Positions 22,195 through 63,528 of a stretch of DNA of 64,000 nt are shown here, piece after piece. The stretch is from assembly GCF_032854445.1 (NCBI RefSeq), contig NC_088295.1:74614028-74678027 (forward strand). The letters are read 5' to 3'. The notes beneath the pieces are model-generated. The model was given only the letters and a program-made list of their open reading frames with translations. It did not search any database and had not been told where the DNA came from. Position numbers and translations under genes: made by a program. The number at the start of each line of letters is the position of its first letter. Within the stretch, counting starts at the first letter, position 1. Source of the DNA: Liolophura sinensis (taxonomy: Eukaryota; Mollusca; Polyplacophora; Chitonida; Chitonidae).

Positions 22195-23301
22195 TCAGCA
22201 TTCTGCAGCCTCGGGTTCACCCTCCTGGGCCGCGTACTTATTCGCCAGCTCATCGGGTGGTCGTAAATCCACCTGGAACCGATGCTCTTTACCTTCCTGC
22301 TGTAGTTTCCGCATATTGACCCTGAACGCAAACGCCAGAGAAACGGCAACTTTCCGAGCCGATAACGAGGAATCACAGATAAAAGCATGACAATCCATTT
22401 TCTTGGATCTCGCCGACAGTTCTTGAACAACGATGAAGGTAAACACTCTCCAGAATTTCAAATCTTGGACACCGTAGGAAATAAAGTCGATTGGAAACGT
22501 ACCTGCTTGCGGCATTGAATCGTCCTTGACTCTATTGTTCTTGTGTTCCCGTAGCTCTAGACCCTTGGGGGACACCACTAAATACATCAGAGGTAGTTCG
22601 ACAGGTTTGTCGCCGGTCTCCAGCTGTTTAGTCACTTTCTTCACCATTTCATCCACAGGTTTCCGAACATGTTTAATCCCCCACAGACCGTCACATTCCC
22701 TTTTCCCCAGGTATTTGACAATAAAGCATTGTGGTAGTTTATCTATTGTCACCTCGGACAGATCTGGGTCCGGCTTAAGCTTGTCTTTGGCTGACGAGCC
22801 CTTTGACCGAGAACTGGAGGATTTATTGGTAGACTTAGTGAACTTTCGCAATAAACCTTTGACTGGATTCGTACCTTTTTTCTTGGTATTTTCTTTGGTG
22901 CTTGTTCGATTTTCGTCATCGTTCATTGTTCTGTTCTCACCTTTATGATCTGAAGAAGTCGTGCTGGTAGCGTCCGAGTTGGACTCAGGGACACCATTGC
23001 TGACACCGTCCTCGTGCTGACTAGATTCGCCGTCTTCGCTGGTACCGTTCTTCGTATCCGACGGAGTACTGGACACCGCCCCGACGGATCCCGTCTCGGC
23101 TGCCTCTGTAGACCGGGTGCTATCCGAGTCTTCTATTGAAGAGGGTATATCCCGATCGGGAATGGTCAACGCAGTCACGTCGTGAAGTCTCTCAATGATG
23201 TCTTCCGCGTCGCCTTCACTGTTAATCGAGGCATTTTCCGCGCTGTAATTTGAATCGTTCAATTTGTCATTGGTGGGCTGATCGTTTTCCACGGCTGCCA
23301 T
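22195..23301 (-). CDS. PID/PTB-domain adaptor protein, 368 residues, single exon in the window
   Basis: The ORF runs from ATG at 23299-23301 to TGA at 22195-22197 with no need for introns. Residues 1 to about 150 are acidic and Ser/Thr-rich, so probably disordered. A basic stretch with KGLLRKFTKSTNKSSSS-like sequence follows. From about residue 190 (PQCFIVKYLGKRECDGLWGI) to about 340 the pattern fits a phosphotyrosine-binding/PID fold: the YLG strand, a VSPKGLELRE strand, an FISYGVQDLKFWRVFTFIV strand pair, MDCHAFICDSS, and a C-terminal helix with ARKVAVSLAFAFR. Such domains bind NPxY-type peptides in adaptors (GULP/CED-6, PID1, FAM43), but I cannot assign the subfamily. The role is probably cytosolic signalling or receptor adaptor work. 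AATAAA on the minus strand near 21832 is a candidate poly(A) signal. Weak minus-strand TATA-like sequences lie near 23812 and 24095. Confidence 0.85.
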   Translation of the reverse strand: MAAVENDQPTNDKLNDSNYSAENASINSEGDAEDIIERLHDVTALTIPDRDIPSSIEDSDSTRSTEAAETGSVGAVSSTPSDTKNGTSEDGESSQHEDGVSNGVPESNSDATSTTSSDHKGENRTMNDDENRTSTKENTKKKGTNPVKGLLRKFTKSTNKSSSSRSKGSSAKDKLKPDPDLSEVTIDKLPQCFIVKYLGKRECDGLWGIKHVRKPVDEMVKKVTKQLETGDKPVELPLMYLVVSPKGLELREHKNNRVKDDSMPQAGTFPIDFISYGVQDLKFWRVFTFIVVQELSARSKKMDCHAFICDSSLSARKVAVSLAFAFRVNMRKLQQEGKEHRFQVDLRPPDELANKYAAQEGEPEAAEC

Positions 23302-24100
23302 TTTGAAGCACTAGTCAATTTGCTGTTCAGACTAACAACTGATTTGCCCTGCTTTTTTGTCCTCACATCGAACTTGTTCAGTCAAAGGCACTTCTGTTTA
23401 ACAACCACTCATGAACTTGATTTGAGCTGGACTGTGGATCTTAATACGGTAAGCCGCTCAGCCGTGCTTTTACCTGTCCTGAGTGTCGTGCTGTACCTGT
23501 TCAGGTAAACTAGTCCATGTGCTCTCTGGTAGTCCGGTAGTAATGATAGGTTAACCCAAACAGGTAACACAGCCAGGTAGGCTATATAACATGAGTCCAG
23601 TTAGCACTCACCAGCTGCTTCTCAGTGTGTATTACCAAGCAGGCCTGTCTCCGCGCCGTTCTCTTGGTACCTCCCCTTCCACCACAAGTCTATTAACCTC
23701 CGTTTGCCTAAAACACCTTTACCTGTCACACAGGTAACACAGAACTAACTCCAACGGGCTGAGGCTAGCCAGCAGGTATAAGGGAAATCGTCGTCACTGC
23801 GTGAGCACCGCTATAAATAGACAATAAGGGGAAAAAAGTGCGGTGCGCACGCCGGAGTGAACTGAGCTAAAAGGCTATGGAAGATTTGCTGATGTCCTAC
23901 CGTACTCTCCGGTCTTCTCTGATAACTAAACCCTCCGAGTTGTCCTTCAGACGAACCACTTTGTGAGGCTCTCGCCAGGAATGTCGGTTATAATGTCAGT
24001 CACTTCCATATTTGGCAGATATCGCCTTGCAACGTCACACAAAGCCACACCTTATTCAAAGCGAGGGGGTAACTGAAGGTAAACGTCCCCGGGTATATAA
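23302..24100 (-). promoter_or_regulatory. Probable 5' UTR/promoter region of the PTB gene
   Basis: It is more GC-rich than the surroundings and lies directly upstream of the PTB start codon. Minus-strand CTATTTATAGC (near 23815) and TATTATATAC (near 24095) are weak TATA candidates. The start of transcription cannot be fixed from sequence. Confidence 0.3.
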
Positions 24101-30322: not shown

Positions 30323-30835
30323 TATGTACATACCTAAACATCTACCCTGAACACATGCGGGGAATTAACAAATCTCCGGTTCAGAACGGTTTGGATTACC
30401 ACTCTTCAGAGTTGACAGTCGACCAGTTCTTCTGGTCTGTTCATGCTTTATGTCTCATTTGATACATGCCGTGTCATTCCCGTACAACTGGTTTGTGTTG
30501 AGTTATATCCACTTCCAAATTCCGCCGGCGATTGTAATCTGTGAAGTTAAATATTTGGGAAAACATAAAATCTATTGTTTGTATTTCAAGATGACATCTG
30601 AAAAAATGAATCTGAGATTCATTATTAACTTGTCAGATTCCGACAAAGGTTACGTATATCATGTGGAAGAGAGAAGCAGCTCGCGAGCGTCTCGAAACTT
30701 GGCGATTCCTCGTGCCTTGTGAGCATTAATTGGATTAAAACGGTAGCAAAGGTAATAATATTGTATCTTAATATTACAATCATTTGAGTTCTAAGCATAA
30801 AAAAGTAGATCGCCTCTAAAGCTGGTCACTAATTA

Positions 30836-31142
30836 CAGTGGTGCTGCCTCATCGTTTATAATGGTTGTGTTTTCTCAGTTATAGTGACGCTGTCTCACCA
30901 GTTATAAGGGTTGTGTTTTCTCAGTTATAGTGACGCTTTCTCACCAGTTATAACGTTTGTGTTTTCTCAGTTATAGTGGTGCTCTCTCACCAGTTACAAT
31001 CGTTGTGTTTTCTCAGTTATAGTGGTGCTGTCTCGTTATTTATAATGGTGCGTCTCGTCATTTATTGTGGTGCTGTTTTGTCATTTATAATGGTGCTGTC
31101 TCGTCATTTATAGTGGTGCTGTTTCGTTGTTTATTGTGGATA
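30836..31142. repeat. Minisatellite, 23-bp monomer with a 46-bp higher-order unit
   Basis: TTTCTCAGTTATAGTG anchors recur at 30871, 30917, 30963 and 31009, exactly 46 bp apart. From about 31020 a simpler 23-bp unit (ATGGTGCTGTCTCGTCATTT plus 3) takes over for about five copies. Confidence 0.9.
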
Positions 31143-38684: not shown

Positions 38685-41600
38685 ATGGGCGAAAAACCAG
38701 AATCGTCTAAGATGGAGAAGCCTCGCTTCCAGGGGTTCGATGTAAACGAGGGTAAGCCATCTGTACACTTAATTTAAATGTCTGAGCTTAAATGTTAACG
38801 CCTACAACCGGTTATTCATAATGCAGTGTGAATATTATGGAACTATTGAGAGTAGCACTTACATACGTACATGTAAACCTACTGATACGCAGATGAACCG
38901 GTTATATGTAACATTGTATACGCGTGCACAAAATTCCTCGCAAATTATTCTTAATTAGTTTATGCAACTGAGAAACGACAATGCTGTCTTTAAATTGCTT
39001 CTCACTCAACACGGATATTGTTCCCCTGATGTGCAAAACCGTAACCTGAACGTCACCATGCTCGCCTTAGGCCAGAACCTGCTAATGTTGAGATTATGGT
39101 AGCTCAATCCACTACCAAAATTGTTTCCATTACTTTCTACCTTTGCATCGAACTAAGAAAGCCTTTATCATTGAACAAAATAACACAGAATGAGTACTAA
39201 TAATTTTGTTGTGTAGCTTACGCTCGTGCAAAGCGTTCCAGCCGCTGTCCTGAAGTGACATGGTTGGCGCGTGAAGGTCATTAGGCATTAAGGTCAAGGT
39301 TAACCGTGCACTCAGTTACAAGTGATCTTTACATGCAAATGCAGAATAGAGCAGAACGTCTCCGACCGTCTCTTGTAACATTGTGGTGACTTGATCTGAA
39401 AGCACATGAGCTGTTTTTCTAGGGGAGGGTGCTACATAAAATAAGGTCGTGTGGAAGAAGTGGTGGAAACCGCCGCTTGCCTCTAGTCACGTACACGGCA
39501 TCCGCGAATAGCTCCTGATCGATTTCAGAAAACAGGGAGTTTATGATTAGGGTTAGAATTCATACGCATGTTACCTTCCGCGTATAGCCTTGCGGATTAC
39601 GTACAACTTGTTCCGAATGCGTTCACGTAAAATCAATTATAGAACAAAATGTCAACTTAAACACACACTGAGGCCAGAGTGCAATCATTTCCTTTTAAAC
39701 AATTTTTTTTAATAAAAACAACTTCTTTTTTTTTTGTCTCGCAGAAAATTTAAAACATGTCATGAGCCTTGGGAATCAATCAGTAAATTAATATTAACTT
39801 ATATCTTAATTATCCCTTGACAAAGTAAACATGCAGACTTACACTCATTAATTGTCATCGCCTGATTCTGTGGTACACTTGTCTTATTAAGTTAGATTCA
39901 GGTGAAGACAGTGTTTGGTATTCGGTGATACTTTGGGAGTGCATACGGAGATGATGCCACATACTAAACACTATGCGTTTAATACATTGATTACGAAAGG
40001 AAAAATTTAATATTCTGTGTTAGCAGTGTACAGCTTATAATGTCAGTTCCTAAGGTTTCACCTTTCTGCATGTTACATATCTACACACATATCAAAGTCA
40101 TTTTTTTCATTTTGCGTTAACATCTATAATTGCATTTCTAATTGTTTACGTCATGTACACGTGACATTGTCTCTGTTGATATCAACATCCGAACACCTAT
40201 GCCACTATACCGCGTATGTGTCTATATGTACAAGCTATGTTGATATCAACATCCGAACACCATTGCCTGTTTATTCCGGGTATAGAGCGGTGCAGATCCC
40301 GGTAACCCTTTATCACTCGGGGTAATACGGAAAGTGCTTTCGTAATCTCTGCGCCAAGTCGAGCTGACCCTCCCCACGTCCTCGACTGGATATGTCAGCA
40401 GCGCTCAGTGGGTCTGTTCGCCGCCTCGATCGATTCACGACTGCTAACAAACACATCCGCCTGGCTTGAAAAGGACCGTCTGGGCCGCGTAATAGTTTTT
40501 TACTCGTTTTCTATAGCAACCTGTCATGTAAATTTAACCAGCTATAATAGTTTGGTGTCAGTCTCTGCTGATCACTTTGCCCAGTTGATTTATCACTGAA
40601 ACTGCCATATACGTACACCATTGGGATAACAGCAACGTGCATGTGGTATATACCTTCCCAGTTGTGCCTAAGAAGAAACCAACATGAGCTGGACTTGAAC
40701 TCACTGCGACCGCACTGGTGAGGGGCTGCTGTGTCATTGCGCCGCGCTGGCACGTTAACCACCTCGGCAACGGAGGTCTGAATTAGAACGGCACAGTTTA
40801 GCTCACCGTTTTCATCCGTATTAGGCAAATGTCGGCTCAAATATATATTAACACCCGAAGTGACAGGTGCGTAGGACTTTTTGCGCCCCCTGCAAGGCCT
40901 ACTGATCGGACTACTAACATAGTTAGGAGTCGAAACGTAAACGGCCATAAACTGGTGAAATGAACAGAGCCAGATACGAGCTGGCCTCTTTTAAGTCCAG
41001 CATTTCAACGCTATAGTGTAACCGTGGCCTATATATTAGTTTGAATTCTAAGAAATACATGAAAATCATTGTGCCTGATTTTAATCTGGCTTCCTTCTTT
41101 TGACGAAGAAAAATCGTATACATCCATTTCTCATTAAGTGATATTGCGAAATACAGTTCTCCGGTGATTTATGTGAAAACTTGTGAAAGAAAACCCCAGG
41201 GATGCTTCCTAACAGGGTTACATGCCTAGCCAGAATCCAGAGTAGGAAAAGCCGAAACATGTTTGCAGACTTGAGGAGATTGGCACTTTGCCCTTTTCGC
41301 TGTCATGGTTCAGGCCTATAGGTTATCCTCTGCATGATCGATATGTCTCGCGATCAGCTATAAATACCTGTAAAACAGTTTTTCACATATTCACGATTAA
41401 AACGGAGCATGATCAGCAATCAAATTCCAGTTTTGAATCTTTGATGTCCAGATGTCCAAGGTCTATTTAACTTGCCGCAGACGAAAATACTTCAACATAT
41501 AAAGATCGCCTACTGAAATGTGAACAATTTTTACCATTACATAATCGATGAAACAGTGACACATTATTACATCCAGCCGACTACTTAATACATGAGAAGT

Positions 41601-44600
41601 TGTCATGGAGTTTTTATATATTTCATTGGTAATTTTAACTCGGCACTCGCTCTCTTAAACGACGATTGTCAGTTTGTTCGAATTGTTCAAATTTTTATCA
41701 TCTCGAATATTTTACTATTTCTTACGGCAGGCTTCGTTTCATTAAGGGTTGGTTTTTTGCTGTTGGCTTAAATGTTACTTTCAAATATTAGAAACATCTT
41801 GTTATGAATGACCACAATACTTTCTTGCAATGCCATGGTTGACGTCAAAGCGGCACGTGTTTGGCATCACTTATTTCTTTTCTTTGTTTTAGTGCCATTG
41901 TGGACCTCAAAGCTGTTTCCGGTTGCTATCATTTGTTTTTTTGCTTCCTTGCAGCGGCATGGTTGACGGCAAAGAGGCTCCTGATGGTCATCATTTGAGT
42001 TTTGCTTTCTTTCAGTGCCATGGTAGACGTCAAAGCGGTTCCTTGTGTCCATTATCTGCGTTCATTTGGTTTCTTTCTTTGTCATGGTGGACATCGAAGT
42101 GGACCTTCATGGGCATCTTTTGTTTCTTTGCTATCTTGAAGTTCCATGGTGGACATCAAAGCCATTCCTGATGGCCATTATTTGTTTCTTTGCTTTCTTT
42201 CAGTGCCATCAAAGGGGTTTCTGGTGGTCATGATTTGTTTCTTTGCTTTCTTTCAATGCCATGGGACCATCATAGCTGTTTTTGATGGCTAGCATTTGTT
42301 TGTGTGCTTTCTTGCAGTGCCATAGTGGACGTCAAAGTGGTTCCTGGTGGGCACTATTTGTTTCTGTGCATTCTTTTAGCACTATGGTAGACGTCTAAGT
42401 GGTTTATTATGACTATCATTTGTTCCTTTGCTTTCTTTCAGTGCCATGGTGGACATCAAAGCGGTTTCTGATGGCCGTAATTTGTTTCTTTGGCTTTGGG
42501 AATTTGTACGCTCAGCGAGTGAACCTCAGTATGGCCATGGTTTGTATGATAAACCACACGGCTACCGATGTTGGCATGGAGTCAAAATATCCGGAACAAT
42601 ATCACAGTCACATTGGGCACACGAACGACTCCGGGTATTCACACGTTACCACTCAAGGACCCGTTGACCTTGAGGAACAGTGCCCTTCACATGGTCATTC
42701 GGATAATGAAACGATTAGCCAATCAGAGGTAGGTATATGGGCCTGAATTCTTAATTTAGTCATTAAGATACAAACTACTAATATTCTATAATACACAATT
42801 AACGGTGTTCAGGTGCTTTGCTGTTATTGGTTTTCGTTTGTTTTTTTGTTTTGTTTTTTTTTACTTATACTTGAGTTTACGTTGTGCAAACATTTAAAAC
42901 TACAGTTTTTTCGTCTTTATTTTATTTTTTTATTTGTTCAGCAAGGCAATCTCGTCTGGGATAAACAAATCCAAGGACTTCTTCTTGGCTCTTTTTTCTG
43001 GGGATATTTATTTCCTCAAGTACCTGGCGGTTGGCTCAGTGAAAAATTTGGCGCCAAAAAGGTTACAGCCGCCGGAATGTTTCCTGTCGCCATTTTGACT
43101 CTCTTGACACCCGTCAGCGCTACCACGAGCCCTTGGCTCCTCCTTGTGGTCAGAATCCTTATCGGAGTAGGGGAGGTAAGTTAGTCATTTACATCTCCAT
43201 GGAGATATATTATCTCTTTTAAATGAATGTCATAGCTGATCAGTCTCAAGTTTCGTCGGACATGTGTTTATATTTATCGGTTGAGCTTGACTTTTCTTCT
43301 TTATTGTCTTGAGCCATAATCGTTCATTCTTCATTATTGTATTTATTGTATAGAAAATACGACATTTTCAGCCAATATCATAATTCGGTTGATTACACAT
43401 TTCCAGGCTGTCATGTACCCTGCTGCTCAAGCCCTGTTTGCCCGCTGGGCGGCGCCCTGGGAACGGAGTCGTCTGATTGGTATATCATACGCAGGTGCGT
43501 GTTTTAGGCTTTTGAGAGGAGAAATGCGGCTAATCCAATGAGAAACATGGCGGCATAAATACATTTAAGTTTCTTGAAAGAGCCTTTCATTTTATGTCAC
43601 GTTTACTGTGTACTAAGGAAGTACATGTTCCCAGTTAATGCTTCCGCAGACAGGAGGCTGGATTTCACTGGTTAACTGCGACCGATTTACCTTACATGGA
43701 TAAAGCATTATGGACACGATAATTAATTGAGTATTAAGTCTGACCCAGAAAAGCAGTCGAAACCATTCCATAATAGGCAATCTTTACGTAATCTCCTTAT
43801 TCCGTTTCAAAAGCACGACCATAATTTTTATGTGTAGCTTTTTCATTTGTCGGCATCCATAATGACTCCGTTGCGTAGACCCTAACACAGCAAAAAATCA
43901 ATCAATCAATCGTTATTCATGACCAAATAATGCGCCAAACCTAATCGACAATCAAGAGTGACAAACAATGTCTGGATGGATTGGGGCATAATGAAACATA
44001 CTGCTACATTGCTGTCCATTGCGGTAATATGGGACAGACGCTATCGATTTTGGACTTCATGGTTATATCCCTGCTTGCTATTAAACCAGATACCAGCAAG
44101 TTGTCTCTTTGCTCTCAGGTGGTCAGCTAGGGAATGCCATAGCCTTCCCCGTGTCCGGATTACTCTGCGATTATGGATTCGGTGGTGGATGGCCGTCCAT
44201 ATTCTATGTATTTGGTAAGCATCAGTGATTTGGCTTCTCAGAATCGTGGAGTTTTTCATAATCCAGAACTTTTTTGCATGTGGATGATGAAAGGCTTCAG
44301 GTTCCTTTGTACATGTAGGTAAATTCATCATTTGAACACTCTTCGTAACGCTTTGGGAAATCAGTCTTAAGCTATGAAATACGTTTACTTTTGTTTTAAT
44401 TCTTAAATACTTAAGTGGCAAGGTCTGCCAGCAACCTGCGGATGGTCGTGGGTTTTCCCCGGGCACTGCCAGGTTTACTCCCACCATAACGCTGGCCGCC
44501 GTCGAATAAGTGGAATATTCTTGAGTGTGGCGTAAAACACCAATCAAATAAATAAATAAATAGTTTGTACCATTTTGTTTCGGAACAGCTTGCCTACGCT

Positions 44601-47600
44601 GGGTTAAATAATTCATTAGTAAATTGAGTTTGACTCTGATATTAGTTAATTAACAAAGTTTAATGGCTTGCCATCAACTTGTCCGTTCTTGATTTGTTTT
44701 TCGTCTTGACTGGCTAATGAATTCTGTATAGCAACAAGAAAACGAAACATACTAATGGTAAAAAAAAAATTACCCCCCCCCCGCCCACAACCTTCATTCA
44801 CCTAGATGGCTTGACCTTTAAAATGTTTTTGATCTAAGCACTGGGTGCAGGCGGTGCCTTTATCTGTTAAGATCAGATTTTCATTGTGATTGGAGAGCCT
44901 TAGAAGTCTTACTCCCCACTTCCTTACGGTTCCGTCAGCCGTTAAATACAGATCTAAGATCGATTTTATTCTGGCACTGTTCCATACAGTTGTATTTTGT
45001 GGCAATATAGTTTCTGTGTAACGCTGATGGCTTTTAAAAACCCGTCAGTTAGTCGTATAAATTCAAGCCGTCTTTGAATCTGTCACAGGTACATGTGGAT
45101 TTATCTGGTGCGTGGTATGGACGATATTTGTTCACGATTCCCCGGCAGAATGTCCGAGAATTACCGACATTGAACGGAAATACGTCGAGCAGTCGCTGGG
45201 ACAGAGTAACAAGAACAAAAAGGTCTGTTAGGTTAATGCATTTAAGAAATGAACTCAAGAAATGAACGGCTATAGTTGTCAAAATTTGGCTGAAATTTCA
45301 TGGCCTTATTTCTTTTTTGATTTGATCGGTGTTTTATGCCGTATACTCAAGAATATTTCACTTATGCGACGGCAACCAGCATTATTGTAGGAGGAGACAT
45401 GACCTCAAGCTATGATCATTCATTCATCGTCGTCAATGACAAAACATCCATCCGATCGATCTGTCAGATATTTAGTTCATCCATCAATACCTCTGCCAAT
45501 CAGTCAGTAATGAACAAATCAGCTGTTGAATAGTCAGCTTTTAAGATGACTCGCGTTTTATTCATTAATTTATTCGTTTATTTGATTGGTGTTTTACGTC
45601 GTACTTAAGAATAGTTCACTTATGCGACGGCGGCCAGCATTATGGTGGGAGGAAACCGGACTTTAACTCTCAGCGACCGTGTTTGTGAGAGGCTTCTGGG
45701 ATATTGTGCCGCGTGGGCGTGCTAACTCCCGCGGCCACGGAGGCGTCTTATTCATTAATACAGAAAAAGTATATAACAGTGTGTACATTACAGGCAATTG
45801 GTCTAATACTCAAGCAAACGATTAAAACAGCCGATCTATTTAAAGAGCTCAGCATTTTCTTATTAAACTTGTACCTCTCAGAAACCGGACACGCCTTGGA
45901 AGCCATTTTCAGCAGCCCGGCTGTCTGGGCCATCATTGTGGCCCACACCTGTGGTAACTGGGGAGCTTACTTTATCCTTACCAGCATACCGGCCTACATG
46001 AAAGAAGTACTCAAGTTTGACATCAAAAAGGTAGTATTGCATTTTTTTCATTTCTAAATTCTAGACCAGTTGATGACCTCTAGTAAATTATTATCATATC
46101 ACTACACTTTTTTACCTACACTCAAAAAGTTAATCTCTTGAATTTATTTTATTATTATAACTCAACATCGTATCATATTCAACATAGTATTCAAGCCTAA
46201 TAGAATCTATATGTTCAATTAATACAATATGTGTGTTATATTTAACATAATAATCTGCTGCAATAGCGGAATACATTGTAGCATTCCTCAGACAACACAT
46301 TTTCTGATAAATTTCACAGATTATCTATTTGAGAGTAACTCCAGTGAGCCACGGTACCATAGGGGGTCTATGTTGCTACCATATTTGGCTAATTACATGA
46401 ACAGTTAGAATAAAACCCTAACAGGGGACGAGAAGCTGTATTTCACCAGTTACGTGTCGCCATTAACCAGCAATCACTCTGTCGTCACTGTTCTGGTTGT
46501 ACTCTCCATGCTGTAGTCGTTTACATCGTAATTAATGCTTTGTTTGTTCAAAGAATATGTGATATGTGAAAACACACTTGAACTATCATAAATCTGACCA
46601 TGTGTTTTTATACAGCTATAGTTTGTCTTGAGATTGAACATTTCATTGAACATTGACACATTAGCAAACGTTATTTATCATGCGTATGTTTTTAAAATGG
46701 TTGCAAACAAATCAACTTTGTAGTTCTTTGGACCACTGTAATGTACATACCTCCATTGCATGTACAATACTTTATCGCCTTTCCTTCTTTGTCTGGTTAT
46801 TATTTCTCATTTGTTCGGAATATTATGTTTCTCGAAATGACCATTTCTAGTGCCATGTTGTGACAAAATGGGCTATTTTCGATACTACTTGTTTCCCCCA
46901 CTCTGGATGTGTTATAATACCGAGCGGGCTGTTCTCAATGTTGCCGCATTTATCATTTGGATGTGTTTATTATACAGAGTAGAATGTTTTTAATTTTGCT
47001 ACATTTCTCATTTTTAAACGTGTTTTCAGGATTTCTCTTATAATCCCATGTGTTTTATCTCCCAGATCGGATTGTTTTCAAAGTTGCCGTGTTTCTAATG
47101 TTTGACATGTTTGGTTACAAAATAGATTGTTATCTTCCTGCATGCTTTACATGGTTCTCTCATTACGGATGTGTCATTTTATAGAATGGACTGTTTACAA
47201 GGTTGCCTTATATCTAACATTTTTATTTATTTATTTATTTATTTTTTTCGAAACTAGATTGTTATCTTCCTGAATGCTTTATCTCACATTCTGGATGTGT
47301 TGTGTTGAACAGTGGTGCTGTTTATATAATGTTAGATGTGTCATGTTACAGATCGGTCTGTTTACAATGTATTTTGTCACTTTGCATGAGTGTTTACAAT
47401 ATTACAGTATCACAGATTTTTGTATGTTCTGTTACAGAACGGACTGTTCACAATGTTGCCGTATCTCTCATTTTGGATGTGTATTAACATTGGAGGCACA
47501 TTGGCCGACTTTCTCATTGAAAAGAAGATTTTAACAGTTGTCTGGACCAGAAGAAACTGATGGACACTATAGGTAAATGTTAAACCATTAGTAATCCGCC

Positions 47601-59400: not shown

Positions 59401-62400
59401 TATTTCAATACCTGTAAATAAACATAAAATAGCATTAATTGCCTGTCAAGTTTCCACATGCTAATTACATTCAAGCATTATGAAGCTATTTGACTACATC
59501 AGCTCTAGACATATTAATACTATTATGAACATACACAGTACACACATGAAAATCTTGTAAGACACCACAGACAGCAAAACTTCCTGACTTCCTAAAAATA
59601 AGTGACCTAACGTTAAACCACAGAATGTCATTTAAAATACTACTTTAGGTGTTAAAACTTACATTTTTTCACTAAAATATCAGCCTACCTTCCAAACAAA
59701 GCTTCACGCACCATTCCAAAGTCAAAACTCCCAGAATCAGGGAAAACAAGCAACTTAATCAGAGAAGAAATCTTCTTTGTCAATAATCGCTAACATTTAT
59801 TTATTTGTTTAATTGGTGTTTTACGTGGTACTCGAATATTTCACTGTATGACGACAGCCAGCATGTTGCTGCAGACCTTTCAACATACAGCCGGACAGAA
59901 AGCCAGCAAGAGTCAGCATGAACTCACAGCGACCGCATTGGTGAGAGGCTCCTGGGTCATTATAATCGCAAAGAATTTCAATTATTCTTAGTCATATATA
60001 GCTGCATAGCGTGTATGTACATCTTATAGAATTGTTTTATGTATAACTATCAGATGCTGGTGGATAACTGACAAAGTTTGCAATTACAGTACCATAGATG
60101 AATGTGAGGCAACACAAAATCAAAAAATATACCGATACATGTATATGTGTACATTTAATTGTTGAAGATGTTAAAGATATGATCTACTGCATCTGCTGAA
60201 ACAATGTGAATTTAAAATAAAGGCCAAAAAAATTACCTTATGTACTGAAGCTTTACATTTTTCAGTAGAATAATATTTATTTATTCATTTGATTGGTGTT
60301 TTACGTCATACTCAAGAATATTTCACCTATACCACGACAGCCAGCATTATGCAGGGAGGAGTAGAATAATAATACTCCAACCTTCTGAATGAACCCCTTA
60401 GCTCCTTTCTAAGATCAGGAGAACTCTCAGAGTCTGGCAAAACGAAGATGAAAGTTTATATAAAACTTAACTGCTTACCCCTTGATTCTATTTCCTTTAC
60501 ACACTTTTCCACCACAATAGGTATGAGAGTATTCTGAGCTTTGACTAAAGTAGTGAGATCCGCCCCAAATATCCTCTTGATGTACTTCATGTCTGGCATA
60601 CAGTCGTTTGGCACCTGCTCTGAGCACTTCTTGTGAGCCTGGAAACCACAGTCTGTACTCAAAGAGAAAACACCAGGTAGGGCTCAGAACAAACAACCGT
60701 CTGCATAACATACTGAGAAGAAAATTATAGCCCATGCCAAATTTAATTCATAAGATGATACAAAAAATTTATATACTGGTACACTATGAAAGCACACAAC
60801 TGAAAACCAGTTGAAGTGAGAGGTGTTAATTGTTAAAGTAAACATGTCAATCAGTCAATAAACCACAGAAGACCATTGCCCTGACCAGAATGCATCTTTA
60901 TCACTCACAAATGTCATATTGGCCTCAATATTTGTTTTTTTCTGCCTAAATTACATAAAATTGCCAAGAACTTCCATGTTACGTATTTCCAAGGTGTGCC
61001 TGTACATGTATGACGTGCATTTTTCACGAGAAAGCTTCCACTGTTAGTATTTTCAAATTTCTTGTTTTCTATTTTTGTCAACTCTTTCAGTCATTTGTGT
61101 ACTAAAACAATAATTCTGATTGGTAGGAAGGTTTTGCCTATTTAGCCAGAGACATGGCAGTGGCAAAGTTGGAATTATGTCATTTTTACTTCAGATCTTT
61201 CTAAGGCTGACCTTAGCAAAATTGAATAATGTAGCACTGGATGTAATATTACAAGGAGTTATTCCCCTTGATCATGCAGTGCTGTATTCACACTTCCACC
61301 CATGTGAAATAGCTGGCAAGGAGCCAGGTAAGGAGTTAATGTAGTGTGAAGCATGGAGACTGCCTTACCTTGACACTTGACACCTTGAGCAATAATACCC
61401 CACATAAAATTGGCACAGAAATCACACCAATGCAGACCCTTAAAATTATGAACCTGCAAAAACAGAACATTATGATTCAAAGAACTGTGTAACTGCTTAT
61501 GGGTAATTTCTCATGTACTCATAAAAAACTGACCTACATTATACATCACATTAAATACTTATATATGTACTTAATTAAGGCTTAACACTGTGATGTAAGA
61601 TTTTTAACTCATGCAACAATGGTCATTTTCATGGGTAGGGCGAACACAGTGCCATCAAGTGTTTGTTGCCACCAAGATCCCTAGAACAGTAGATGCTGAG
61701 CAATGTTGATCGTTACTTGTCAGCCATTGGGTTTGAGCCAACACAACAATGTCCTAGCAATTTTCAGATAAACATCTTCACCACTTGCCCACAACCCACC
61801 CCTGTCAACAATTAAAGCCAGTTTTAAGAGCATAAAGTGATAGGGGCATACCTTAAAAACATGTGTCTTTTCAAAATCTTGAACATTTAAAAGTTCTTCT
61901 ACATTCTCTTCTTCTGTAATTTGGTCCTGCAAACAAAGCAGATCATCACCTCAATGCACAAGTGTACTCCACAAATTATCACCAGATAATCAGAACTGCG
62001 CACATACTACAGTCTGCAGGAAAGCCACATCAGTGAATCAGAATGAATGAATGACTGCAGTTTAATATTTCAGCCTTATAAGAACAACAATGAATTAGAT
62101 GTGACTAAACAGCTTACTGGTTGTACAATGTAGTTGGTCCCATTGGTTCCGTCTGTGCGGTCAGAAGGCAGTGAAGAATCTTTCGTTTTGGCATTGCGGC
62201 GTTTCTTCTTCCCACTGTACACCATGTATGGGGATTCTGCATAATTTGATTGGCTAGAGAGTGCCGCGATATAATCGGCAGCGCGGGACTCCAAGTAGAA
62301 GGTAATGAGACCATCAGCCACCAGATCGTGCACAGTGTCAAAGCGCTTCTCACCAACGTAGTGTTTGCCGTCATGGTACAGCTTGTAGTTCTTGGTCTGC

Positions 62401-63528
62401 TTGTCAAACCTGTAGCAACCAGCTAATCTTCATCAATATATTCTTAACAAAATTTGTAAATTATTTAACCTTATTAACATGAATAAGTTACATGTGAGAT
62501 AATGAGTCGGTTAAATTATTAAAATTTAAAATTAGTTTTCAATACAGGAGCAATGTTTGTCCATTTAAAGAGCACTCACCTGATGGCTAAGGTGTAAGCC
62601 CCTGGGGCTCTCTGGCTCTCTCTCACCAGGTAACAGCCATCACCCTCCTGCAACAGACTGTCTGTCTCCTCACGGCTGATAAACCCATGGAACCTACAAA
62701 TAAGAATAAGACATTACTTACAGTCTGTTGATAAAATACAAATTCCTGTTGATTCTGTTACATACAGTTACAAGAAATTGTCCCACCTTACTTAATACAT
62801 TTTCAGTATATCTCAGCAATTTCAAACTTATCAAAAAAAAAGTTCCTGAAGATTAACATTTATTAGGTGACACATTTTGCTTGATTATGCTTGATTCGTC
62901 CACCTTGTAACATCTGATTAATATCTTATCAGAACTAGAGCCCAAGGGCTTTGAAATGGGTCTATTGCTCTTCTATTTATATTTTTCTTGTAACTAATAC
63001 CCAATTGTCTTCTAGTGCAATTCACTGGTATTCTCCACCCACAAAGGGCCTATTAATTACTCTATCTGTAATGGAGGACCCAGCTCCACCTCATTCTGGC
63101 ATGACTTTAAAGAGAATGCATTGCACCAGAACATCATATTACGATATACTGTTACATTGTAAACATTTTCTTGAAAATTTTTTTGTAAGTAAGTCTTTAC
63201 CACTTCAATTTGTTCTGTTAGTGTGAGCATGAAAATCTTCATTATTTGTTCCACTACAGTATGTGGCAACAGATCAAAGCAACACATTCTAATACAATAC
63301 ATGTTTTGCTCCTTAGATTGTACAGTTGGATAGCAACAATACAAACATGGCAAGGACATATAAAATACATGTACAATCTGTCGACCTTTTTTTTTTTATC
63401 TTTTCAGGATTATACCCAAATGTTCATCACATATAGCAAATGCAATTAACAGCTCACTCCACAACTTACCAGATAACTTCTTCAACGGACCATGAAAAAC
63501 TTTGTATAACAAGTTTGTTGGCATTCAT
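56402..63528 (-). CDS. CHN: Chimaerin: SH2, C1 and RhoGAP protein
   Basis: Coding exons, in gene order: 63528-63470, 62693-62580, 62409-62118, 61926-61852, 61453-61369, 60652-60479, 59411-59334, 57917-57780, 57344-57233 and 56579-56402. All borders are GT/AG and all phases agree, giving 434 residues (human alpha2-chimaerin has 459). SH2, about 20-105: FHGFISREE and GCYLVRES with the phosphotyrosine-binding Arg. C1, about 182-231: [20 protein letters not shown] and [18 protein letters not shown] keep the Cys/His zinc ligands; this domain binds diacylglycerol. RhoGAP, about 244-434: IEGLYRVAG has the catalytic Arg finger, and [20 protein letters not shown] follows. Chimaerins are Rac GTPase-activating proteins recruited to membranes by diacylglycerol. 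The first exon is the least sure part. Its frame stays open to a possible acceptor at 63578, so it may be internal, and usual chimaerin N-termini read YGREFHG where this one reads VIWFHG. CHN1 and CHN2 cannot be told apart here. Confidence 0.93.
56732..57072 (-). mobile_element. SINE group B, near full length, reverse
   Basis: (GTAT)n and TGTTTGGGGTTTAACGTCGG at the left, CAGTCATATGACGACAAGG, then TTGAGCGCCAAGCGAGCCAG. The tRNA-like head is at the right (GCAGACGCTCTGACCAATTG). It lies in the last chimaerin intron. Confidence 0.86.
58008..58946. mobile_element. Possible non-autonomous DNA element with 21-bp terminal inverted repeats
   Basis: TGTAAATGCC plus TTTTTATTTGT (58008-58028) is the reverse complement, with one mismatch, of ACGAATAAAAAGGCATTTAC plus A (58926-58946). 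TTTCGCGG-type motifs lie inside both ends. It is about 940 bp, in a chimaerin intron, with no ORF of note. A clear target-site duplication is not visible. Confidence 0.5.
59793..59965 (-). mobile_element. SINE group A with internal deletion, reverse
   Basis: TTTATTTATTTGTTTAATTG tail, a shortened body, then head-side sequence CATGAACTCACAGCGACCGC and GGTGAGAGGCTCCTGGGTCA. In a chimaerin intron. Confidence 0.84.
60270..60362 (-). mobile_element. SINE group A tail fragment, reverse
   Basis: TTTATTTATTCATTTGATTG, then TACTCAAGAATATTTCACCT and ACGACAGCCAGCATTATGC; about 115 bp from a chimaerin exon. Confidence 0.84.

Follow-up and report, generated by a model that had tools for sequence, protein, structure and literature searches.

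A tandem array of an intron-exon junction in an SLC17-type transporter gene of Liolophura sinensis, and similar arrays at other splice junctions of its genome

In an SLC17-type (sialin-like) transporter gene of the mollusc Liolophura sinensis, intron 1 ends in a tandem array of about 11 diverged copies of its own acceptor junction, the last of which is the real start of exon 2, and arrays built in the same manner adjoin acceptors and donors elsewhere in the genome. Our reading, to which we would give a probability of roughly 0.7, is that the junction was tandem-duplicated in an old burst, as one case of a genome-wide habit of forming arrays, and that the extra copies have been tolerated as intron. 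The gene lies in a stretch of 64,000 nucleotides of contig NC_088295.1 (assembly GCF_032854445.1, positions 74,614,028 to 74,678,027), called the window below.

Results

The gene is on the forward strand of the window, and its features are collected in Table 1. Exon 2 matches solved sialin chains (E 1.9e-5) and exon 3 matches MFS_1, while three of five peptides of the gene compared with Pfam, that of exon 2 on its own among them, have no match at 0.01; the name given to the gene therefore rests on the sialin chains and on MFS_1. Exon 1 is a candidate, put forward on its ATG, its phase and its donor (GAGG|GTAAGC, with the GT at 38752), for which homology support was looked for and none was found. 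As to exon 2, homology, frame and phase together suggest that the last acceptor of the array is the one in use.

Table 1. Features of the transporter gene and of the junction array (window coordinates; each copy is counted from the first base after its acceptor position)
Feature	Start	End	Strand	Remarks
Candidate exon 1	38685	38751	+	22 residues + 1 nt; ATG, open frame, phase 1 fits exon 2
Intron 1 (as read here)	38752	42441	+	3690 nt
Junction array	41820	42497	+	TRF, period 62, 11.1 copies, 68% matches; intronic 41820-42441, exonic 42442-42497
Copy 1	41831	41892	+	exon-like part and acceptor of copy 2; own acceptor position CAA (lost)
Copy 2	41893	41954	+	decoy acceptor TTTTAG, AG 41891-41892
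Copy 3	41955	42015	+	decoy acceptor TTGCAG, AG 41953-41954
Copy 4	42016	42079	+	decoy acceptor TTTCAG, AG 42014-42015
Copy 5	42080	42141	+	acceptor lost (CTT)
Copy 6	42142	42203	+	acceptor GAAG, AG 42140-42141
Copy 7	42204	42256	+	decoy acceptor, AG 42202-42203; 1-base difference from real site over last 20 nt
Copy 8	42257	42317	+	acceptor lost (CAA)
Copy 9	42318	42379	+	decoy acceptor TTGCAG, AG 42316-42317
Copy 10	42380	42441	+	decoy acceptor TTTTAG, AG 42378-42379; tail is tract and AG of real site
Real exon 2	42442	42728	+	G|TG = Val + 29 residues on; sialin-like first membrane helix
Exon 3	42942	43175	+	MFS_1 match (Pfam), tblastn; end approximate

A first-pass annotation had placed about 11 copies with a period of about 62 bp at the end of intron 1, and TRF finds just that. 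Moreover, identity at lag 62 is 0.532 within the array, as against a maximum of 0.352 at lags 61-63 in 2000 shuffles and 0.333 in the best window of the same size clear of the array (at 46801), so that the periodicity, whose absence the annotation had named as a ground for giving up its reading, is clear by autocorrelation. The 11 aligned copies are spaced by 62, 62, 61, 64, 62, 62, 53, 61, 62 and 62 nt. Each unit joins about 10 nt of the intron end, namely the tract and AG, to about 52 nt of the start of exon 2; its T-rich tract is for the most part made of Phe-rich helix codons of the exon itself (TTTGTTTCTTTG), after which comes CTTTCTTTCAG. The annotation had described every copy as mimicking the tract, the AG and some 45 exon bases. 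The AG is kept in seven of the ten upstream copies (2, 3, 4, 6, 7, 9 and 10; it is lost in 1, 5 and 8), and the exon part is slightly longer than had been thought. The annotation was right that the unit is a junction rather than a whole exon, and that the last copy is the real exon start at 42442. In its head-to-tail units of tens of bases (62 bp x 11.1) the array is minisatellite-like, and with a unit made of intron end, AG and exon start and a terminal copy that is the real one it is at the same time a tandem duplication over an intron-exon junction. Exon duplication, with or without mutually exclusive use, was considered and rejected, because the copied part of exon 2 amounts to only about 52 of its 287 nt and lacks the donor.

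Where did the copies come from? Parts of this genome are rich in tandem arrays, and one could suppose that this one is a dispersed satellite, or a repeat derived from a transposon, whose end coincides with the exon by chance. We give this hardly any weight and have rejected a dispersed origin, since the whole array, used as a query against the 609-Mb genome, matched one place, namely itself (in a search that skips very common words); in that search the second ground on which the annotation would have abandoned its reading was likewise not seen. What is more, the sequence of the copies is that of an SLC17 exon start, which stands in single copy in two paralogues. In these paralogues, L003 and L004, exon 2 begins as CAG|TGCCATGGTGGAC[A/G]TC, at the same codon and in the same phase and with no TRF array adjoining; of their first 16 exon nucleotides, 16 and 15, respectively, are identical to the real exon, and 15 and 16 to the array consensus. 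The exon is thus the source, an old exon start having been copied into its own intron, and the shared codon and phase of the acceptor imply that intron 1 is probably older than the array. A paper on the intron position in SLC17A5 was looked for in the open-licence literature and none was found.

Tandem arrays are a weak point of genome assemblies, and collapsed or expanded repeats could in principle yield an array of this kind. We consider such an artefact the least credible of all the explanations weighed here, because the copies are individually distinct, with a mean difference of about 28%, which is not the kind of divergence that arises through faulty assembly; in addition, the array of another locus (L016, below) is interrupted by a SINE-like insert.

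The divergence is star-like: mean identity between copies is 0.70-0.74 at every separation, with no fall with distance, and the Jukes-Cantor (JC) value between copies is about 0.35. This pattern, taken from one genome, argues against recent turnover of the array and fits one old burst without later turnover. Under a star model the change per site is 0.188 in the copies and 0.066 in the real exon, a ratio of 2.84, and the difference between the copy and exon branches was zero or negative in 7 of 1000 column bootstraps. Retention at the three codon positions is 8.06, 8.19 and 7.80 of 10, which shows no coding pattern. Selection on the AG was not seen (7/9 kept in copies 2-10 against 6.05/9 for the mean dinucleotide column, a weak test with 9-10 copies), nor was selection on the tract (T columns 8.08/9 against 7.75/9). 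The annotation also took the array to act as a row of decoy or alternative 3' splice sites, which is at most a possible role: with the AG retained near the column mean and the codon positions alike, there is no sign of selection either keeping or purging the sites, and the intronic copies look neutral. As for branch points, a CTGAT precedes the AG by 32-33 nt in copies 4 and 7, copy 9 having TTGAT instead, and at the real site a TTTAT lies 36 nt and an ATGAC 30 nt upstream of the AG; the motif is too loose, and we dropped it as evidence.

Use of an upstream copy would add 62-549 nt to the transcript. Spliced to an AG at an upstream acceptor position, candidate exon 1 would in all seven cases run into a stop 24-52 codons from the ATG, which bears out the annotation's claim that the copies are unusable as one added coding frame, as also follows from 62 not being a multiple of three. 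These early stops, together with the similar decay at the three codon positions, led us to reject a coding role. A related proposal is that the copies diversify the N-terminus, as small alternative exons or as in-frame extensions of the exon. From 41700 up to the real acceptor there are 24 upstream [ACT]AG sites, of which only one is open and in frame, a weak taAG at 42398-42399 that would add 42 nt, or 14 codons. A donor array at another locus, L030, has an exact period of 75 bp, a multiple of three, and its first six extensions, out of seven, keep the frame open. However, the seven stops and the unit length speak against this in the window, L030 lies in a locus with apparent frameshifts, and we regard the proposal as very improbable.

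The strength of the acceptors was scored with a crude matrix made from 29 acceptors of other SLC17 exons (boundaries were set automatically for 37 of 63 exons). Copies 2, 3, 4, 7 and 10 score 8.6-11.6 against 7.2 for the real site, and copies 1, 5, 6, 8 and 9 score lower; the real acceptor outscores only one of the 29 training acceptors. In other words, on this crude matrix the real site does not stand out by its local signals, and with five of the ten upstream acceptors outscoring it, local strength leaves the supposed silence of the decoys unexplained.

Would this not suggest that the upstream acceptors are poison sites in real use, whose early stops send transcripts to decay and so tune the amount of transporter? 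That seven upstream copies keep an AG, that all seven lead to a stop and that half of the copies locally outscore the real site would agree with such a role. We still think it unlikely, as the AG and the T columns are kept about as well as neutral columns are, and 10 of the 13 SLC17 loci have no TRF array at the edge of exon 2.

These 13 loci are the basis of our survey. Searches with two exon-2 peptides gave an SLC17 set of at least 13 loci including that of the window, five of them weak (E 0.13-0.65), with exon 2 found again in all 13 by tblastn at E 0.01; in total, 63 SLC17 exons were located by tblastn in 269,511 bases and arrays were called by TRF. That the acceptor lies at the start of the match was shown for part of the 13 "exon 2" loci; in L038 and L040 the open frames extend further upstream. 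Arrays adjoin the acceptor side in 3 of 13 copies of exon 2 and in 0 of 50 other SLC17 exons, the acceptor of exon 3 of the window gene included, and they adjoin the donor side in 4 of 63 exons. Six of these seven edge arrays are built of their own junction, three at acceptors (window, L006 and L016) and three at donors (L043, L030 and L031); the seventh, adjoining exon 3 of L037, consists of intron only and was left out of the count. The excess at the acceptor of exon 2, as well as the presence of three of the donor-side arrays at exon 3, are post hoc observations on few loci.

In L006 the acceptor array has a period of 105 bp and 5.6 copies, and the first 38 nt of the exon match 24, 24, 24 and 23 of 38 positions at four of five acceptor-equivalent places, which are the top four of 1440 registers in a register-fixed test; an untargeted local alignment of the exon with the array was not significant (p 0.36). 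The acceptor array of L016 has a 41/81 bp period and up to 29 of 36 matching positions, with weaker copies further upstream. Inside it, at about 1016-1296 of L016, lies a SINE-like insert with a poly-A tail, flanked on both sides by AAATCCCCAG, which could be a target-site duplication or mere array sequence. The tail of the insert resembles a SINE known from molluscs.

Of the donor arrays, that of exon 3 of L043 (G000:C6) has 15.5 copies of 55 bp at L043:1994-2866; in its unit the final ~46 nt of exon 3 are joined to a donor resembling GTAAGT or GTGAGT, giving a row of decoy 5' splice sites. That of exon 3 of L030 (G000:C3) has 8.5 copies of 75 bp at L030:7090-7723, with a GT in each of the eight copies scanned, and that of exon 10 of L031 has 2.9 copies of 60 bp. 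A k-mer test on the edges of the 63 exons flagged four of the junctions, namely the acceptors of the window and L016 and the donors of L031 and L043; it flagged neither L006 nor L030, of which the former rests on the register-fixed match and the latter on inspection of its copies. As measured, less than one quarter of the unit is intron in three of the seven arrays; in L006 and L031 the register of the units is problematic.

The six SLC17 junction arrays represent four loci: the window, L006 and L043 have one each, and L016, L030 and L031, which appear to be a single locus whose exons 2 and 3 seem to be frameshifted, have three. This last locus may, to judge from its reading frames, be a pseudogene, and its three arrays are therefore no proof that such arrays are tolerated in a working gene. 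Among the exons recovered for L006, L043 and the window gene, none shows a frameshift-type break.

As an unrelated control we took 20 of 117 kinase matches, chosen for high scores and for short open frames without a stop, with 400 nt on each side. One of the 20 exons, L051 of what is presumably a PASK-like kinase gene, has an acceptor array of about 80 bp x 5.3 (L051:1-424; G000:C3:13489209) which carries the first ~33 nt of its exon, with 28 of 36 positions matching, where the best of ten shuffles reached 21; none of the 20 kinase donors lies in an array. A kinase exon in its own junction array means that the phenomenon is not special to SLC17, just as the arrays at other acceptors and at donors mean that it is not peculiar to SLC17 intron 1.

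How common are arrays in general? They cover 11.8% of the 269,511 bases of the SLC17 set, unevenly (between 0 and 24% in single blocks; 2.3% for the window), and 5.7% of the 18,802 bases of the kinase set. No enrichment at junctions was seen in the SLC17 set, with coverage of about 4.4% within 50 nt of exon edges and 7-13% at 150-1499 nt. The window itself has a second tandem array at 30833-31139, with 23/46 bp units and TTTTCTCAG and CTCACCAG ends, at neither edge of which we recognised an exon by eye. Two further open frames in the window, both on the reverse strand and judged by eye, resemble a PTB-domain protein (22198-23310) and an SH2 domain (62079-62429).

Discussion

The events that we propose would be as follows. 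A stretch over the acceptor of intron 1, made of about 10 nt of tract and AG and about 52 nt of exon 2, would have been duplicated and then amplified to about 11 copies, with the T-rich helix codons of the exon probably providing the short homology for the first duplication. The copy adjoining the body of the exon would have been kept by selection as the real exon start, while the ten upstream copies would have turned into intron and drifted freely. Tandem arrays would arise in many places of the genome and some of them would happen to straddle splice junctions, where they persist, we believe, because splicing removes the extra copies together with the intron. The true site is the last copy in acceptor arrays and the first in donor arrays, in both cases the one adjoining the exon body. 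Given that arrays are common, uneven and not enriched at junctions, a general habit of tandem duplication is the likeliest cause. That said, a purely random process does not predict the concentration of acceptor arrays at exon 2, which is a post hoc comparison.

A different cause would be that splice junctions are themselves preferred starts of tandem amplification. The arrays described here would then belong to a genome-wide class, numbering thousands by extrapolation, and the triggers could be, for example, the tract-AG or exon-end-GTAAGT contexts, RNA:DNA hybrids or splicing factors that make the template slip. We hold this to be rather improbable; if true, junction arrays would be a source of splice-site sliding, in-frame extensions and recruited poison sites.

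Under the general habit that we favour, the decoys would be mostly ignored, with the copy nearest to the exon body winning under pairing across the exon. A transcriptome-wide study (PMC9225289) states that where recognition works across the exon, it favours the sites nearest across it, and that exons whose upstream intron is long and whose downstream intron is short behave much as under exon definition. Exon 2 probably belongs to this class, judged by its intron lengths of 3690 nt and about 213 nt (intron 2) rather than by the cut-offs of that paper. It should be noted that, according to the same study, 3' sites overall favour the upstream site, and exons between two long introns lose only part of this bias.

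It has long been asked, often with engineered constructs, how the spliceosome passes over pseudo-sites that are close to perfect. The arrays offer a natural series for this question: in several genes a single acceptor or donor is repeated many times over, and some of the repeats have local signals as good as those of the real site. RNA-seq junctions of the arrays would measure directly how far the choice of site depends on local strength, on order and on the distance from the body of the exon. What is more, the arrays suggest that junctions can multiply without breaking the gene, and such multiplication is a plausible first step to intron gain, to acceptor sliding and to new in-frame extensions.

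Comparison with known systems

Several known systems resemble the array in part. An array in an intron is, as such, familiar from intronic minisatellites or VNTRs, for example in ABCA7 (PMC5954066), and from intron 1 of earthworm metallothionein (PMC12783039), but the unit here is the gene's own splice junction and its terminal copy is exon, which neither description mentions. The NAGNAG tandem acceptors (PMC3250501) likewise place more than one AG at one intron end, but they do so at a spacing of 3 nt, whereas the AGs here are about 62 nt apart and each has a tract of its own.

Closer to our case are models of intron gain. In the Rogers model, as cited in PMC4974935, an intron is gained via a duplicated exon segment bearing AGGT, with ATP2A1 and multi-copy cases in fission yeast as examples, in the latter of which one intron spans four or two duplicates. 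Short tandem repeats and splice sites derived from copied exon sequence are common to these cases and to ours. However, in the Rogers model the exonic unit supplies both the GT and the AG, while here an existing acceptor or donor is copied and the old intron lengthens.

The closest likeness is with RdRp of potato, in which a tandem duplication across the boundary of intron 1 and exon 2 made a new intron (Ma, Lan and Niu 2016, PMC4974935). There, too, the duplicated unit lies over an intron-exon boundary and includes the tract, the AG and the exon start, and it also has a putative branch site. That was one duplication, with a recruited donor and a new intron, whereas here there are about 11 copies and no new intron is apparent; and, unlike the potato case, the kind of array described here recurs at donors and in an unrelated gene. 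Among the open-licence papers listed in our searches, represented mostly by titles and the starts of abstracts, multi-copy junction arrays appear nowhere beyond the cases that PMC4974935 cites. Within the compass of these sources, what is new here is that junction arrays of many copies occur at acceptors as well as at donors in several genes of one genome, with potato RdRp as their single-event precedent.
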